40,446 nt of DNA from Flectobacillus sp. (GCA_023255485.1 JALRIJ010000001.1:1-40446), one strand, 5' to 3'. Positions 33,021 to 40,294 are shown, counted from the first letter of the stretch. Notes: generated by a model not told the origin, from the sequence alone. A program made the numbers and translations.

Positions 33021-35354
33021 TTACAGTACCGTTACTCTAATAGCTTTTAACCCATAGACTCCCTGCATTTCTTCTAATTCAAGGTACTCAATTTGATTTG
33101 AAATTAACTGTTTGCTATGCAAGTATTCAATATAACCAAGGTATTCTTCGAGGTCTTTGACATTTCCATAGACCAAGGCAATTTTCCCTGGTTGGGTCAG
33201 GCGTTCTTCCGTTCCTTTAAGCAGAGCCTTATCAATCCGTTTCTTCATGATTTCATAACGCAAGTTATAAGCTCCTTCTGTATCAAAGCGACGCTCGTCT
33301 CTTCTAAAGCTGATGTCAATGGCATTACTATGAATCAAAATTAACTGTGTCGTCTCTAATTTAATCGGTAACGTGTCGTGCAGTTCTCTCGTAACTTTTG
33401 TAATCTCAGCCATAGAATGTAGTTGCCACAAACGCAGGTTTCGCAAATACATTGGATTGTAAGGCTCATTAGGACAAATACTCTGACCAATATAAATATT
33501 GTACTCAACACCATCGGTTTTGTATTTCTCAAAATAATTAGGGTAGGCCGCTTGTATAATTTCCCGTTCTTTTTCGAGGTAATTACTTACGGTCGTATTG
33601 ATGGCATTCAGACTATCTTCAAAGGCTTTGCGGTATTCATAAACATGACCGTGATTTTCTTCCGTTACTACAAAGTAATAAGATAGAGCGGTATAGTCAG
33701 CTCCTTTTAATTCGAGCAAATGCCTAAAAATAGGCTCTATTTCTTCTGCAAAAAAGTAGTTTAAATGGATTTCATCATCGGGTGAAATACCGTCTTGAAT
33801 ACGAGCTAAAAACTGCTTGTTCTTAAAAGCCAATTCCTCTAAAATGGGTAAATCATGGACTAAACTAACTTCTTGTAGTGTTTGGTCGATAATATGAAGT
33901 TGAGTCTCAAAATCTCTTAAAAGGGCTTTGTTTCGCTCAATAGATGAGTTTCGTATATCGACAGCTCCGTATAATGGATAAACCTCTTTGAAAATGATAT
34001 TTTTCATTTGGTTATTTTTGGAGCTTTTGTTCTTCATAAAATCCCAAGCTACTTCATTGAATTTCCATTCTACAGCAGGCTGTAAAGAGGTAAATTTCTC
34101 TTTAATTAATTGCTCTATTTTATTCTCGAAGTTTTCAATATAGTGATTGATTGCTTGTTCCAGAATCGGGAGGGCTAAGTTGATTTTATTCATCTCTTCT
34201 GGCCCTAGTTGATTGGGCAGGCTACTTGCCACTTCTAATACGCCTATCAATTTACCTTGATTGCTAATCGGCATCATCAGATAACCTTGATATTGCTTTT
34301 CTAGCAATCCTTTGAACATTTCCCTATCTTTTAGGCCTGAATCCTGTAAATTAGGCACTAAAATCGTATGAGGATTTTGTTCGTACTTTTTCCATACTTC
34401 GCCAAAAATGCTATGTTGTTTATCCCTTTCAGACGGAATAATCAGCATGGTTTTACGGTTGTATTCTTCCGAAATGACGTAACTATTATTGACCTGTAAT
34501 AAGGGGAATATATTGACCTTAATCTCTTTAATACCTAATAATACCTTGATGGATTCCTCTAACGCAGTGTAGGTATGTCCATCGTTTGCATTGAGTTTTA
34601 GCCCAATGTTTTTCATTTCATTGAGAGCTGCTTCCTGTGTTACATCTCTGATACTGACAACACTAAAGCCTTCAAATAAGAAATCCTTTAAGGGAACATT
34701 TGCTAGTAAAGTTTTGACATCAATAATTTGGTTAGATTCGTTACAAATGATTCCTTTTTCGAGAGCAGGGAGGGGGTGCTCACCTGTATAGGTAATGTTT
34801 ATAAAACGGTTATCAGCATTGATACGGTAATATTTTAACAAGCCACTTTTGTTGTTTTTGAAAGAATAAGTGACTTCTTCGTTGATATCGATTTCAATCC
34901 CGTAGTACTTTTCTAATATCCATTTATAGGCAAATTGACATTTAGTGTCGGTAATTTCAGCGATGTTGACGGTACTATTGAGCGTAAGTAGGCCTTTTTC
35001 TAGGTCGATGAAAGCATCTTCAAACGCTTTTGAATAGTAAAAAACTCGCAAATAGAAAGGAAGGCTAAGGGCATAAAGTTGCTTATCGCTTTCAGAAACC
35101 AAGGGAAATAATACAAGGTTAAGTAACTCGACGAGCTTTTCCTGTAAATGAAATAAATCGGGGTCGTCAAAGGGTTCTAGTAATTCAGGATGTTCTTCAA
35201 ACTGTTCAATAATATACTGATATATTTTTGCTTGTAAGCCGTGTTGTTCTTGGGCTTTTTGACGTAAAAAGGCAACAAAAGGGCCGAATGAAAGCTTACT
35301 CTGAACATACCCCGTTAGCGTCAATGTTTCTGTATCGGGTGTAATTGTTTTCAT
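33021..35354 (-). CDS. Large GAF-domain protein
   Basis: I start at the ATG at 35354 (MKTITPDTETL), giving 777 residues. An earlier TTG lies inside a 19-bp hairpin and would add an unlikely N-terminus. The middle (about 265-435 of the product) looks like a GAF sensor domain, with segments TMLIIPSERD, ILVPNLQDS and GYLMMPISNQGKLIGVLEVAS. The flanking parts are helical and unfamiliar. There is no kinase, cyclase or DNA-binding domain, so it is probably a cytoplasmic sensor or scaffold working through partners. The conserved upstream gene encodes an outer-membrane phosphatase fusion. Confidence 0.72.
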   Translation of the reverse strand: MKTITPDTETLTLTGYVQSKLSFGPFVAFLRQKAQEQHGLQAKIYQYIIEQFEEHPELLEPFDDPDLFHLQEKLVELLNLVLFPLVSESDKQLYALSLPFYLRVFYYSKAFEDAFIDLEKGLLTLNSTVNIAEITDTKCQFAYKWILEKYYGIEIDINEEVTYSFKNNKSGLLKYYRINADNRFINITYTGEHPLPALEKGIICNESNQIIDVKTLLANVPLKDFLFEGFSVVSIRDVTQEAALNEMKNIGLKLNANDGHTYTALEESIKVLLGIKEIKVNIFPLLQVNNSYVISEEYNRKTMLIIPSERDKQHSIFGEVWKKYEQNPHTILVPNLQDSGLKDREMFKGLLEKQYQGYLMMPISNQGKLIGVLEVASSLPNQLGPEEMNKINLALPILEQAINHYIENFENKIEQLIKEKFTSLQPAVEWKFNEVAWDFMKNKSSKNNQMKNIIFKEVYPLYGAVDIRNSSIERNKALLRDFETQLHIIDQTLQEVSLVHDLPILEELAFKNKQFLARIQDGISPDDEIHLNYFFAEEIEPIFRHLLELKGADYTALSYYFVVTEENHGHVYEYRKAFEDSLNAINTTVSNYLEKEREIIQAAYPNYFEKYKTDGVEYNIYIGQSICPNEPYNPMYLRNLRLWQLHSMAEITKVTRELHDTLPIKLETTQLILIHSNAIDISFRRDERRFDTEGAYNLRYEIMKKRIDKALLKGTEERLTQPGKIALVYGNVKDLEEYLGYIEYLHSKQLISNQIEYLELEEMQGVYGLKAIRVTVL

Positions 35355-35370
35355 GTAATGCAATGTTGAT

Positions 35371-35418
35371 GTTGTTGTGTCTGATACAAAGCTTAAACCT
35401 TGTATCAGATACAACAAC
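35371..35418 (-). promoter_or_regulatory. 19-bp inverted repeat just before the GAF-gene start
   Basis: The arms 35371-35389 and 35400-35418 pair over 19 bp with one G-U pair around a 10-nt loop. The 3' end of the hairpin is 16 nt before the ATG. No T-run follows on either strand, so it is not a standard terminator. It could be a leader control hairpin or an operator, and it also makes the longer start codon unlikely. Confidence 0.65.
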
Positions 35419-35461: not shown

Positions 35462-38400
35462 TTAAAAGAAAAATCCAAGTTTTAGGTTGAATAATTGGTC
35501 GTCTTCGGATACGCTATAAGTACCTGTGATGACAGCTAAATTGAAGGGAGATACCCAAACGCCACCACCATAACCATGGTGCCATTTATTGGATTTTTCG
35601 CCTACATTCCAAACTCTTCCTACATCGCTGAAGCCCAAAATGCCGATATGAAGTGGAAATAAATAGCTTTTGAGACTCATCAGTTTAGCTCTGATTTCGG
35701 TGTTGTTATAAAAGGATTGTTGCCCCGAAAAACGGTTGTCTCTAAATCCTCTTAAATTGCTTAACCCTCCTAGCGTATTAGCTTGATAAAACTCATAGTT
35801 ACCCACGTTGAATGCTCCCCCAAAGCGGGTGGCAAAGGTTAAGCTTGCGGGGAGTTTAAAGGTATGATAAAAGGAAATAGCGGTTTTGAAGGTCATAATT
35901 TCATCGTCAATACTGGTAAGAATACCGTGCTGATAAGTCGCATTGACATCCAATAACATCCCTTGGGTAGTAAGAGCAACGTTATTACGAGTGTCTAACG
36001 TTACCCCTACACGAGTTCCTAGATAGTCTCGCTCTTGGTAGAGACTAGAGCCAATAGGGGCATACTCGTTGATGAAACGACTCGCATTGGGTTTTACATT
36101 ATAACCTGAATAGACGATTCCATAGTAGAAAACGGCTTTATCGACGTGATTACGGAAAATAAGACTGTTCTCGTAATTGCTTAGTTTTGTCCGATAATAT
36201 TGAATGCCTCTGCCTTTTTCTTTTAAGTAAACGGATTCGTTACTCATTCCAAAAAAGTTATTAACGAGTCCTTCTTGTTGTAGGGTTAACTTGACTTGTA
36301 GGTCGGTTTTCCCAATTAAATCAATGAAGTTACCTGTATAATAAAGGTTAAACGCATTGGTTGAAAAGGCATAATTACCCGTTAGACTATGTTCTGAAGC
36401 GTATGGTGTTTTTCGAAAAGAGTTTTTACGAAATTGAATACCTCCACCAATAAAAAGTCCATCGTCGGCATTGTAAGCAAAGGATGCCAAGGGGGCAAGT
36501 CGATTATAATTGAAAACCGATGTGCTTAAATTGTTGGCACTGGCTTTATTATCCGTTGTTTTATCGACGGTTTCTTCTCCTGCTTGCAGGATAGTATTTT
36601 TGATTTTATCATACACAATCGTTTTCTTTGAACCAAGCTCTACCGCCGAGCTGTCGTAAAACGCATCTTTTCCTTTTCCGCCAATTAAGCGTACTCGAAT
36701 ACCTCGGTGGGCGTTTCCTTTAACCTCAAAACGGTCTTCGCCATCGAGTCCCCAAATACGAATTTCTTTTGTTTCTTTAGGGTCAAAAAGGCGATGATAA
36801 ATACGATTACTTTTTTGCTCTTTTTTGTTTAAATCATAAACACTTACGTCTGTTTTGCCATCTTCTTGTCGAATTACTTCAATTAGTTCATCTTTATCAG
36901 AAGCCATCACATCGACTTCTTTGGCAAGAAAACGGTAATAGGTTCGAGCGTATTCCATTAAATCGGTTCTACGCTGTTGAAGCTTTGCCGCAATTTCAGT
37001 TTTGTGTTCGTCGGGTTCAGGCATTTTTGCCAGTGCTTCCGTGATGACACTGTCTGTTACCTGTTGTTGAATGGCTTGTGCTGCGGTTAACCAATCCTCT
37101 TGAGAAAGGGCTGTCAAGAAAGAATGATCGACTTCGTTCGCATTGGCATTGAAGGTATTGACATCCCTAATGGTGTAGCCGAACCCTTGTACCTTAGGGA
37201 GTATCCATTTTCTTGAAACAATTTTTGGGAGAATACCTTGGCTCACAAAAAAAGCTTGGTCACGGTCACGAGGAATAGGTCTAAATACCGTCTCTTTTCC
37301 TTCTTCGTAGGCTGCCCAACGCCATTGGTCTTCATGACGATCCCAATCGCCAATGAGTATATCCAGTAAGCGAGCCTTGACAAAAGCCTTTTGGTCAACA
37401 GTATTTTTATTATCTTTTTCTAACTTCTCTCGCAGTTTACTGGTCGAATAAATCTTTTTAGCTCCAGCAAAGCCTTCATCGGGGCGTTCTTCAAAAATGG
37501 CTAATTGATTGGCAAAAAGTCGTTGATATTTTCCTAAGGTGGTATTGTTTTCGAGCGTGACTAATTTGGGGTTGGTATGCAAAACGCCTACCGCTTCGGC
37601 TAAGGTAGGTATTGCCAAGGCTGCAAAAGGATGTGAAGCCGAAATTTGATCACCTACGACTTCAACAGTAAACCGACTACGAATTGCAGCAGGCACGGCA
37701 CTTTCAGGATATTTTTCAACCGAACGAGTTACAAATTCTTTGCCATTAGAAGCTTTATAACGGAGAGAGAGGGTCTGTTGCCCACCGCCTCGTTGGATGA
37801 TGCTCAGCCCTTGTTGTTCTTCCTTTAAATGAAGAATAGGCGTAACAAGAGGCTTTGTCCAAATGTCTCGATAGTTTGCTCCCAAGAGCCATTTTTTGAA
37901 AGCATTTGCTTTAAAAGCTGGATTCGGGATGGTACTTGCATGAGCTCGGTCTTGAATGGTCAAGGGAGGCAAGGGCTTTTTAGTAATGAGTGCTTGTTCG
38001 AGTAGCACGCTGTTGTCACTTTTTATGAATTTTAACCGTAAACTATTGTCTGTCAAGAGTTCAATGACGGCAAATCCTTTTGATTCGGAGGTAAACAACG
38101 CATCTTTAGCTTTCCTGACGGGGGTACTCTTTGACCCCGAACCCGCTGTAATATAGTTGATAGAATCCCGCACAATCCACTGCATGGTATGCTCATGTCC
38201 GTTGGCATAGACGACATTGGGGTATTGCTTGAAAATATCGGTAAGTCCATCCCGCATTTCTTTGTAAGTCGGGTTCTGAATGTCTTGAATATCACCAATT
38301 AGCGAACGATACAAAGGGTAGATACTGCCAATTACGGGCAGAGGAATGTTTACGCCAAGTTCGTGTAAGGGTAATAAATGGTCTTTAAGGGTAAAATAGC

Positions 38401-39061
38401 CCCCGTGTGTCCCGTGCGAGTACATAGGATGATGCCCCAACACGACCACTTTTTGGTCCTGATTTCGGTATAAAATATCATCTACTGCTGTGAGCATAGC
38501 GGGCAAGGTCTTGATCTCACAGTCGCTATGTTCCGCAGGTTTATCCCAAGGGTGCAAAGGCCATTGGGTATCAAGCAAAACGAGGGTAAGGGTTGGCGAA
38601 AGGTGGATTTCTTGTGGGGTAGGGCATCCTCCTTTTGGGAAAAATACGTCATTCTTCTGTAGGTATTCTGTCACAAAAGCCTCTTGATTTTTGATGTATT
38701 GAAGCCCATGTTTACCTCCCTGTTCCCAATCATGATTCCCTGGAATTACGTAACCCAAACCTGCATGCTCTTTAATGACATCGAGTTGAGTTGCTAACTT
38801 ATGTTCATCGCTTTTGCGGTTAGGGTCGTCCACATTACGAAGACCTCTAGGGTAAATATTATCTCCTAAAAAAACGACAGTACTGTTTTTTCCTGCTTGA
38901 GCTAAGTGCTTTTTTAGGCTGTTCAATACAGGGTCTGTACCATCGGTTTGTGGCTCACCTGCATCTCCAATCAAAAAAAGGCGGTAGCTTACTTGTTGTT
39001 CTTGAGCCATCAAAAGAAATGTACCACAAGATAAGATGAGCGTGAGTAAAAATGTTTTCAT
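35462..39061 (-). CDS. Metallophosphoesterase / kinase-like module / Omp85 barrel fusion
   Basis: A 1199-residue outer-membrane protein with a signal peptide (cut after about LLMAQ). Residues 25-350 are a calcineurin-like metallophosphoesterase with all metal motifs: GDAG (32-35), GDN (66-68), GNHD (108-111), GHH (209-211) and GHEH (288-291). Residues about 395-640 contain a Gly-rich turn and strand (QRGGGQQTLSLRY, EFVTRSVEK), then LLDILIGDWDRHEDQW (565-580) and PIPRDRDQAF (595-604); this looks like a kinase-type fold (inference). From about 860 a beta-barrel carries the Omp85 signature LRGF (GGLSNLRGFRDNRF) and ends in FFF. Phosphoesterase-Omp85 fusions are known in Bacteroidota. The phosphatase should face the periplasm; its substrate is unknown. 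Confidence 0.88.
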   Translation of the reverse strand: MKTFLLTLILSCGTFLLMAQEQQVSYRLFLIGDAGEPQTDGTDPVLNSLKKHLAQAGKNSTVVFLGDNIYPRGLRNVDDPNRKSDEHKLATQLDVIKEHAGLGYVIPGNHDWEQGGKHGLQYIKNQEAFVTEYLQKNDVFFPKGGCPTPQEIHLSPTLTLVLLDTQWPLHPWDKPAEHSDCEIKTLPAMLTAVDDILYRNQDQKVVVLGHHPMYSHGTHGGYFTLKDHLLPLHELGVNIPLPVIGSIYPLYRSLIGDIQDIQNPTYKEMRDGLTDIFKQYPNVVYANGHEHTMQWIVRDSINYITAGSGSKSTPVRKAKDALFTSESKGFAVIELLTDNSLRLKFIKSDNSVLLEQALITKKPLPPLTIQDRAHASTIPNPAFKANAFKKWLLGANYRDIWTKPLVTPILHLKEEQQGLSIIQRGGGQQTLSLRYKASNGKEFVTRSVEKYPESAVPAAIRSRFTVEVVGDQISASHPFAALAIPTLAEAVGVLHTNPKLVTLENNTTLGKYQRLFANQLAIFEERPDEGFAGAKKIYSTSKLREKLEKDNKNTVDQKAFVKARLLDILIGDWDRHEDQWRWAAYEEGKETVFRPIPRDRDQAFFVSQGILPKIVSRKWILPKVQGFGYTIRDVNTFNANANEVDHSFLTALSQEDWLTAAQAIQQQVTDSVITEALAKMPEPDEHKTEIAAKLQQRRTDLMEYARTYYRFLAKEVDVMASDKDELIEVIRQEDGKTDVSVYDLNKKEQKSNRIYHRLFDPKETKEIRIWGLDGEDRFEVKGNAHRGIRVRLIGGKGKDAFYDSSAVELGSKKTIVYDKIKNTILQAGEETVDKTTDNKASANNLSTSVFNYNRLAPLASFAYNADDGLFIGGGIQFRKNSFRKTPYASEHSLTGNYAFSTNAFNLYYTGNFIDLIGKTDLQVKLTLQQEGLVNNFFGMSNESVYLKEKGRGIQYYRTKLSNYENSLIFRNHVDKAVFYYGIVYSGYNVKPNASRFINEYAPIGSSLYQERDYLGTRVGVTLDTRNNVALTTQGMLLDVNATYQHGILTSIDDEIMTFKTAISFYHTFKLPASLTFATRFGGAFNVGNYEFYQANTLGGLSNLRGFRDNRFSGQQSFYNNTEIRAKLMSLKSYLFPLHIGILGFSDVGRVWNVGEKSNKWHHGYGGGVWVSPFNLAVITGTYSVSEDDQLFNLKLGFFF

Positions 39062-39085: not shown

Positions 39086-40267
39086 TTATTTTTGTAAAGC
39101 AGCCGCAATGCCAAAAGCGATAATAGAGGCAGCAAAACCGTACATGAAAATGCTATAAGAGATACGGAGCATTTTGTATTTTTTACCCAAAACTTTCCCT
39201 AAATAATAAATGTCACGAGTCATCGACGAATACAAGAAATCAGAATCTTTCATCATCTCTTGGATACCTGCTTCATAATCAGCTAATTCCATTTTATAGA
39301 AGTTGCCAAAAAAAAGTAAATTAGCTGTTTTGTTTTGAATATCTTCTGGTGATACTTTGCCCTTCGTCACGTTAGGAATCGTGGCTAAAATAGCGAAAAT
39401 CGTTGCTAATAGACAAACCGTTGTCAGCATTGCCGTCGGGATTGTCAGGTAAGCATTGTCTTCTAGTTTTCGCAGTAAAATGCTTACAATCAGTGAGATA
39501 ACAATAGTGTTGACCGAAATCATAATATTGGCCTTATTGTCAGCCATCGCAGATAACTGAAAGTGATTGGACGAGGTCGTTCTAAACATCGTTTCAATAC
39601 CTCTATCTGGACGTTTGTCTTTCACTCCGTTGTTTTTTTCTTCTAGTTCTTTACTCTCTTTCTTCTCTGTCTTTTTGATTTCCTTCAAACGGTCTTTTAT
39701 TTTTTGTTGGTTAATAGCTTTCAAAGGACTAAATACTTGGCGGGCGTAACTCGTAAAATAGTGGTGATTTTCAAAAAGGGTATAAGTTCCTTGTAACCAA
39801 TCTTTTTCAGAAATTTCTTTCCCACTAGCGGAGAGTTCTTTACGGAGATTTTCGGATTTTTCAAAGAAATCACTAGCAGCACAATGGTAAAAATCCGCAT
39901 CACAGAGTACCATTTGTTTTTCATTTTTAGGGCTCTGTGGCATTCGAGTGGCTTCGATGTACTCCGCAATTTTTTCAATCCGTTTAGCAGGAAAATGGAT
40001 TGACTCTAAAAAGGTTCTTGCCATTTCGATACTCACTGTTTCGTGGTCAGTGGTACTGTGGGCATAGCCAAGGTCGTGCATCCATGCTGCAATCAGTAAG
40101 TTTTCAGTTACTTTTTCAGATAAGCCCATTTCAGAAGCAATAGTCCAGGTTGCGTCCACTACATAGGCTGTATGACTATAGTTATGATAGCAGTAATGAG
40201 GAGGTAGATTCTCTAAAACCTCTTTGGCATATTCTTTTACGCTCGTAAGTATTTCGGATTCCAACAT
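39086..40267 (-). CDS. HD-domain hydrolase fused to a PycTM (Pycsar effector) membrane domain
   Basis: I start at the ATG at 40267 (MLESEILTSVKEYA), giving 393 residues. Residues about 25-185 are an HD phosphohydrolase domain with metal ligands His32, His64-Asp65 (AAWMHDLGYAH) and Asp124 (LCDADFYH). A Lys/Glu-rich coiled linker (186-222) follows. The C-terminal part has the segment MFRTTSSNHFQLSAMADNKA (227-246) and three membrane helices (about 246-265, 274-298, 370-390), the pattern of the PycTM/DUF5706 family used as membrane-killing effector in Pycsar phage defence. No cyclase gene is adjacent inside the window. It may be a nucleotide-controlled membrane effector or a housekeeping relative. 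Confidence 0.85.
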   Translation of the reverse strand: MLESEILTSVKEYAKEVLENLPPHYCYHNYSHTAYVVDATWTIASEMGLSEKVTENLLIAAWMHDLGYAHSTTDHETVSIEMARTFLESIHFPAKRIEKIAEYIEATRMPQSPKNEKQMVLCDADFYHCAASDFFEKSENLRKELSASGKEISEKDWLQGTYTLFENHHYFTSYARQVFSPLKAINQQKIKDRLKEIKKTEKKESKELEEKNNGVKDKRPDRGIETMFRTTSSNHFQLSAMADNKANIMISVNTIVISLIVSILLRKLEDNAYLTIPTAMLTTVCLLATIFAILATIPNVTKGKVSPEDIQNKTANLLFFGNFYKMELADYEAGIQEMMKDSDFLYSSMTRDIYYLGKVLGKKYKMLRISYSIFMYGFAASIIAFGIAAALQK

Positions 40268-40294
40268 AAGGAAGACTTTGGGGGATAATGACAC

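Follow-up and report, generated by a model that had tools for sequence, protein, structure and literature searches.

We analysed a 40,446-nucleotide stretch of DNA from Flectobacillus sp. (GCA_023255485.1, JALRIJ010000001.1:1-40446; hereafter the window), in which a single open reading frame encodes a protein of 1,199 amino acids (aa) with a signal peptide, a complete metallophosphoesterase, a protein-kinase-like domain, a beta-rich domain and an Omp85 barrel (Table 1). This bears out an initial annotation, made from the sequence alone, which had proposed that one protein joins a phosphatase, a kinase-fold domain and an outer-membrane barrel. Pfam recovers the two ends of the protein, with Metallophos at residues 27–227 (E 8.5e-9) and Omp85 at residues 900–1184 (E 1.5e-11); it assigns no family to the residues between them, and NCBIfam makes no convincing addition. 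The full-length AlphaFold2 model (pLDDT 86, pTM 0.70) resolves the phosphatase, the kinase-like domain, the beta-rich domain and the barrel. The middle module of the initial annotation is thus present, although it spans about 340 residues (~374–713) rather than the estimated 240 or so, and the barrel does follow it, although not directly, as the separate beta-rich domain (~715–833) intervenes.

The middle domain was modelled with AlphaFold2 over residues 370–760 from an alignment of 86 sequences (pLDDT 94.5, pTM 0.92). In the model, strands 419–425 and 432–437 flank the GGG loop, a strand at 442–447 ends near R446 and is followed by a helix at 463–474, and a hinge strand (520–525) ends at E524; a helix at 557–570 then leads into the GDWDRHEDQW loop, strands 580–587 and 590–597 and, last, PRDRDQ. 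This sequence of elements in the model is that of a kinase. A Foldseek search of the PDB returned seven CtkA chains at the top (E 9e-7 to 1e-5), followed by HipA, HipT, CotH (E 7.4e-5) and PI4KII, and every match with E ≤ 0.001 (21/21) is a CtkA, HipA/HipT-type, CotH or PI4KII kinase; the match to Golgi casein kinase (PDB 4kqa) is weak (E 1.6e-3). Structure prediction and structural search, which had been named as a test of the kinase assignment, therefore gave a kinase fold, and the families put forward as kin (HipA, PI4K and FAM20/CotH) come up in the search, CotH by profile as well. The model predicts a bilobal kinase fold of the protein-kinase-like (PKL) superfamily, and the domain is most likely a PKL of the HipA/CtkA/CotH/PI4KII group that represents a new family relative to Pfam and NCBIfam.

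Sequence comparison was performed with hhalign against family profiles collected in this analysis, and the CotH profile gave a score of 54, a probability of 83% and, as a single comparison, an E-value of 9.7e-6. As controls, 16 unrelated families scored 12–23 and the reversed query alignment 16. The alignment places GDWD opposite GNWD of CotH and PRDRD opposite PYDYD, with gaps after the first Asp, and points to profile-level kinship with the CotH family. The 1,199-aa protein does not match the CotH Pfam model (PF08757) up to an E-value of 10, nor is PF08757 among the 25 families listed in a Pfam scan of 86 members. Among PDB profiles, CtkA alone matched (E 0.31). HipA was rejected as the parent family on sequence grounds, its profile (HipA_C, PF07804) giving no HMM match and an hhalign score at background. 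Neither the Pfam nor the NCBIfam HMM library contains a model for the middle domain, as judged from the window protein and the 86-member Pfam scan. A PADLOC match to PDC-M03A at residues 534–595, in the catalytic-loop region, was too weak (E 0.002) and was not used.

The motifs RGGGQQ, GDWDRHEDQW and IPRDRDQAF of the initial annotation are present, starting at residues 424, 571 and 596, and its numbering of D572, D574, R575, H576, D599 and D601 is correct. Conservation was counted in an alignment of 140 relatives, with the 86 sequences used for modelling as a second alignment. Near-invariant positions in the former are G425–G427, R446, K450, D471, E524, D567, D572, D574, R575, H576, Q579, D599 and D601, and the Asp and His residues whose conservation had been proposed as a further test are kept in 129 (H576) to 137 (D572) sequences. 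The motifs are not chance occurrences, because their residues are 92–99% identical over the 140 homologues and the second alignment has 27 invariant columns, including G425–G427, R446, K450, D471, E524, D567, D572, D599 and D601. All eleven key residues are retained in 127/140 relatives; the remaining 13 include a small number of close members carrying GDWSRRED, together with several divergent sequences that are plainly degenerate. A glycine-rich loop, a putative catalytic Asp and a putative metal-binding Asp thus occur in PKL order, with D574 the putative catalytic base 25 residues ahead of D599. R446 appears to sit where the beta3 lysine would be, with K450 just after it, and Q579 takes the position of the catalytic-loop Asn.

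At two loci (L033:1435-4775 and L034:1628-6648), two or three kinase-like lipoproteins, partly divergent, are clustered; one copy has GDWSRREDQW and so lacks the base Asp and the His, next to copies in which a DRH site is kept (GDWDRHEGQW, GDWDRHAGQW), and these clusters look like active/pseudokinase sets. In a further set of divergent relatives (L041, L042, L043, L044, L045, L046 and L052) the kinase site is degenerate and most lengths fit an Omp85 barrel; here the fold may be retained without catalysis.

Table 1 Features of the 1,199-aa protein and its neighbours, with coordinates counted from the first nucleotide of the window
Feature	Coordinates	Strand	Basis
Whole gene: metallophosphoesterase, kinase-like domain, beta domain, Omp85 barrel; 1,199 aa	35462..39061	-	Open reading frame with ATG start; Pfam; model
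Signal peptide, residues 1–19, MKTFLLTLILSCGTFLLMA	39005..39061	-	Sequence; low-confidence N-terminal helix in model; putative cleavage site
Metallophosphoesterase domain, residues ~22–360	37982..38998	-	PF00149, E 8.5e-9; Foldseek matches to GAP50 and purple acid phosphatases; ligands intact
Protein-kinase-like domain, residues ~374–713 (~340 residues)	36923..37942	-	Fold, conservation and CotH profile match; no Pfam or NCBIfam model
Glycine-rich loop RGGGQQT, residues 424–430, between beta1 and beta2	37772..37792	-	G425, G426 and G427 each 131–133/140
RSVEK, residues 446–450 (putative role)	37712..37726	-	R446 132/140, K450 134/140; strand 442–447
E524, end of hinge strand (putative role)	37490..37492	-	137/140; strand 520–525
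GDWDRHEDQW, residues 571–580, catalytic-loop equivalent	37322..37351	-	D572 137, D574 131, H576 129 and W580 137 of 140
PRDRDQ, residues 597–602, putative DFG-equivalent metal motif	37256..37273	-	D599 135/140, D601 132/140; compare CotH PYDYD
Beta-rich linker domain, residues ~715–833, from kinase-like domain to barrel	36563..36919	-	Strands in model
Omp85 barrel, 16 strands, residues ~854–1199	35465..36502	-	PF01103, E 1.5e-11; model; BamA/TamA matches
Upstream neighbour, HD domain + PycTM, 24 bp away	39086..40294	-	Same family near 33/80 related loci
Downstream neighbour, 798 aa, faint sub-threshold GAF signal, 44 bp away	33021..35417	-	Near 29/80 loci

Relatives were collected from 296 sampled Bacteroidota genomes with the middle region as query, and the kinase-like domain was found in 112 of them. 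The 138 matches were divided by open-frame length into 81 long, 43 middle and 13 short forms and one fragment: long forms are phosphatase–kinase–barrel proteins, middle forms (about 860–960 aa) mostly kinase–barrel proteins, and short forms either membrane-anchored at the N terminus (about 430 aa) or mostly lipoproteins (500–580 aa). Many relatives have no phosphatase domain and some have no barrel, and the architecture changes at least 10 times over a tree built from 109 kinase-like domains (cut-off loci excluded). A scan of GTDB genome contigs yielded 548 related stretches, and the locus counts given here rest on the best 80 of these 548, all of which are Bacteroidota by title, the closest being Flectobacillus, Pseudarcicella and Arcicella. 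Plasmid records that annotate proteins with the kinase-like domain call them 'hypothetical protein'. The single-domain, membrane-anchored forms of about 430 aa in L035–L039 share a conserved C-terminal CFEC/CFDC motif.

The phosphatase domain has the motifs GDAG (32–35), GDN (66–68), GNHD (108–111), GHHP (209–212) and GHEH (288–291), and all eight metallophosphoesterase ligands (D33, D67, N68, N109, H110, H210, H289 and H291) are intact; Cys146 and Cys181 in the same domain are conserved. Among 58 long proteins scored, with a site called degenerate when two or more of the eight ligands are changed, 12 have a degenerate phosphatase, and of these 12, 11 retain D574 and 10 retain all 14 kinase positions. 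The phosphatase state changes at least eight times on the tree of 109 kinase-like domains; the tree itself gives no direction, and ligand loss is the natural reading of these changes. The phosphatase has decayed repeatedly and the kinase site is mostly intact, its own decay being rare. Because the phosphatase decays where the kinase site stays, and either the phosphatase or the barrel can be dispensed with, the kinase-like domain appears to be the constant core of the set, within searches for which that domain was itself the query. The self-contained phosphate-signalling device suggested by the initial annotation is possible where both sites are intact, as here, but the pairing is not obligatory given the degenerate phosphatase site in 12/58 relatives.

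The barrel is modelled with 16 strands from residue 854 to the C terminus and has an LRGFR motif in loop 6 (NLRGFR in the sequence), as predicted for an Omp85 barrel with its loop-6 RGF/Y motif, and Foldseek matches this last domain to BamA and TamA. No POTRA domains were found in the 1,199-aa protein by Pfam or in the full-length model. In short lipoprotein forms (for example, L011), the kinase-like domain is likewise followed by sequence resembling the beta-rich domain. A signal peptide, lipobox or signal anchor is present in the short forms, and the long forms combine a signal peptide with the barrel; since signal peptides, lipoboxes, membrane anchors and the barrel all place it outside the cytoplasm, the kinase-like domain is predicted to be extracytoplasmic. 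The conserved Cys146 and Cys181 of the phosphatase domain also speak for this placement.

We consider it probable, on computational evidence, that the protein is a periplasmic PKL kinase tethered at the outer membrane by its Omp85 barrel, with an optional opposing phosphatase. The POTRA-less 16-strand barrel would hold the kinase-like domain at the inner face of the outer membrane, in the periplasm, where it would use a nucleotide as donor to phosphorylate a protein or lipid at the inner leaflet of that membrane. As in CotH and FAM20C, D574 would act as the base and D599 and D601 would bind metal. Where intact, as here, the metallophosphoesterase would dephosphorylate that substrate or a related one. 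These proteins suggest that the periplasmic side of the outer membrane is a site of phosphate chemistry in Bacteroidota. A kinase fold whose active site is conserved occurs in over a third of the sampled genomes; if active, it would locate phosphotransfer at the outer membrane in a major phylum and make the phosphate donor a testable question. To our knowledge, almost no phosphotransfer at an outer membrane has been described.

Several points weigh against a tethered kinase. The main difficulty is the phosphate donor, which is left unexplained because ATP is normally scarce in the periplasm. Q579 stands in for the catalytic-loop Asn and R446 apparently for the beta3 Lys, substitutions that leave room for a pseudokinase or other PKL chemistry. 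A few divergent relatives have lost the site, so the fold can apparently serve without catalysis. TM-scores to single kinases are moderate (0.3–0.55), with long and gapped alignments; the HipA_C set is unmatched by profile, although structural similarity to HipA and CtkA is present in Foldseek; and the CotH E-value stems from one comparison, not from a database search. The two substitutions, the lack of obvious periplasmic ATP and the plain loss of the site in several relatives (GDWSRRED in L033 and L034; the divergent L041–L047) would all suit a pseudokinase scaffold, in which the PKL domain no longer performs phosphotransfer and instead offers the phosphatase or barrel a platform for binding or regulation. 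Such a scaffold is unlikely in our view, as the base and metal-binding acids are strongly conserved across deep divergence and three architectures, including phosphatase-less proteins, and the part that decays is the phosphatase.

It is less plausible that the domain is a PKL enzyme with another donor or chemistry, using polyphosphate or externally released nucleotide, or transferring AMP, glutamate or another group. Scarce periplasmic ATP would favour another donor, as would a polyphosphate kinase 1 gene near 11/80 loci, but this link is one of proximity only and covers five genus-level labels. For another chemistry there is precedent in PKL folds that AMPylate or glutamylate, as stated in the KINtaro paper, which lists 72 PKL families (PMC10870513). 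We also give little credence to a complete cycle of kinase and opposing phosphatase in one chain, run in the periplasm at the outer-membrane wall of Bacteroidota, that draws on polyphosphate or extracellular nucleotide instead of cytoplasmic ATP and governs the Omp85 barrel or outer-membrane lipids. Least probable is an Omp85 assembly or translocation factor whose soluble domains only regulate the barrel. The full 16-strand barrel with its loop-6 motif and the 'Metallo' proposal of 2014 (PMC4104836) would be compatible with such a factor, but PF00149 is a metallophosphoesterase and not a protease, POTRA domains are missing, and PlpD demonstrates that Omp85 barrels are able to anchor enzymes (PMC11116518). 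Nor is the barrel the essential part, since some forms lack one altogether.

The tethered PKL kinase that we favour resembles several known systems. CtkA, HipA and HipT (PDB 3akj, 4pu5 and 7ab3; PF07804) give the best structural match (CtkA, E 9e-7), and CtkA has a DRHxxxW catalytic loop. Unlike the 1,199-aa protein, CtkA and the HipA/HipT kinases are cytoplasmic toxins or injected effectors. FAM20C/Golgi casein kinase and PI4KII match in fold, the Golgi casein kinase weakly as noted above, and have a DRH-type catalytic loop; FAM20C too works in a secretory compartment. CotH (PF08757; Bacillus CotH, PDB 5jd9/5jda) shares the PKL fold, acts as a kinase outside the usual cytoplasmic setting and has the GNWD and PYDYD motifs that align with GDWD and PRDRD; in Bacillus CotH the residues D228 and D251 are required for activity, and changes to them inactivate the protein (PMC7821199). 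The present family differs from CotH in its DRHEDQW loop, its GGGxQT loop and its fusion to an Omp85 barrel, often together with a phosphatase. The phosphatase domain matches purple acid phosphatase and GAP50, but unlike these it is part of a fusion, and its ligands are degenerate in about a fifth of relatives.

What is new here is the kinase-like family, relative to Pfam and NCBIfam; its Omp85 subfamily was known already. The Omp85 census of Heinz and Lithgow (2014) defined ten subfamilies, including 'Metallo' (PF00149 plus barrel), accepted POTRA-less members, and termed PF00149 a metalloprotease domain with a proposed role in periplasmic proteolysis or as a secreted virulence domain; in the available portion of its text the word kinase is absent and the kinase-like domain is undescribed (PMC4104836). 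The 1,199-aa protein has both PF00149, at the N terminus, and a POTRA-less Omp85 barrel, and the 'Metallo' members are very probably the same proteins. As PF00149 is the calcineurin-like phosphoesterase family in Pfam, our analysis corrects the published metalloprotease reading of this subfamily. The 'noNterm' group of the census, with barrels resembling those of Metallo (PMC4104836), may correspond to the kinase–barrel form. A precedent for placement is PlpD (patatin-Omp85, type Vd), whose enzyme domain stays in the periplasm according to Hanson and colleagues (PMC11116518). PlpD joins a patatin-like phospholipase and POTRA to its barrel, whereas the 1,199-aa protein joins a phosphatase and a PKL domain without POTRA and so falls outside type Vd (patatin, POTRA and barrel). 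These proteins suggest that the use of Omp85 barrels to anchor envelope enzymes is more widespread than PlpD alone would indicate. Two papers from 2025 on Bacteroidota outer-membrane biogenesis contain no mention of a phosphatase or kinase. A Riemerella metallophosphoesterase is probably not of this architecture, as it appears in a review among the type IX secretion effectors (PMC10202324).

The 1,199-aa gene likely forms an operon with the HD-PycTM gene and the GAF-like gene, because both neighbours lie on the same strand at 24 bp and 44 bp; for the 798-aa downstream protein, Pfam has no dedicated family. Promoter and terminator scans at the 1,199-aa gene were at background level, and repeats around it are short and unremarkable. 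No neighbour is obviously shared among the short single-domain forms. All neighbour links are of proximity only, and the neighbourhood was rejected as a guide to the substrate, as polyphosphate kinase, HD-PycTM, class III cyclase and histidine phosphatase recur but disagree on the pathway. The 33 loci with HD-PycTM nearby carry 19 genus-level labels, and an SdiA-regulated-like protein occurs near 21/80 loci. Polyphosphate kinase 1 is encoded no more than a few genes away from the kinase-like gene in L070, L071, L081, L084, L085, L061, L064, L086, L089, L101 and L106. PycTM is a Pycsar effector module, and the HD-PycTM fusion is conserved beside the kinase-like gene in many genera. A class III nucleotide cyclase is found near 10/80 loci, nine of which also have HD-PycTM (L055, L089, L091, L116, L118, L120, L123, L125 and L126), and this HD-PycTM/cyclase neighbourhood looks like a chromosomal signalling set rather than a mobile defence island.

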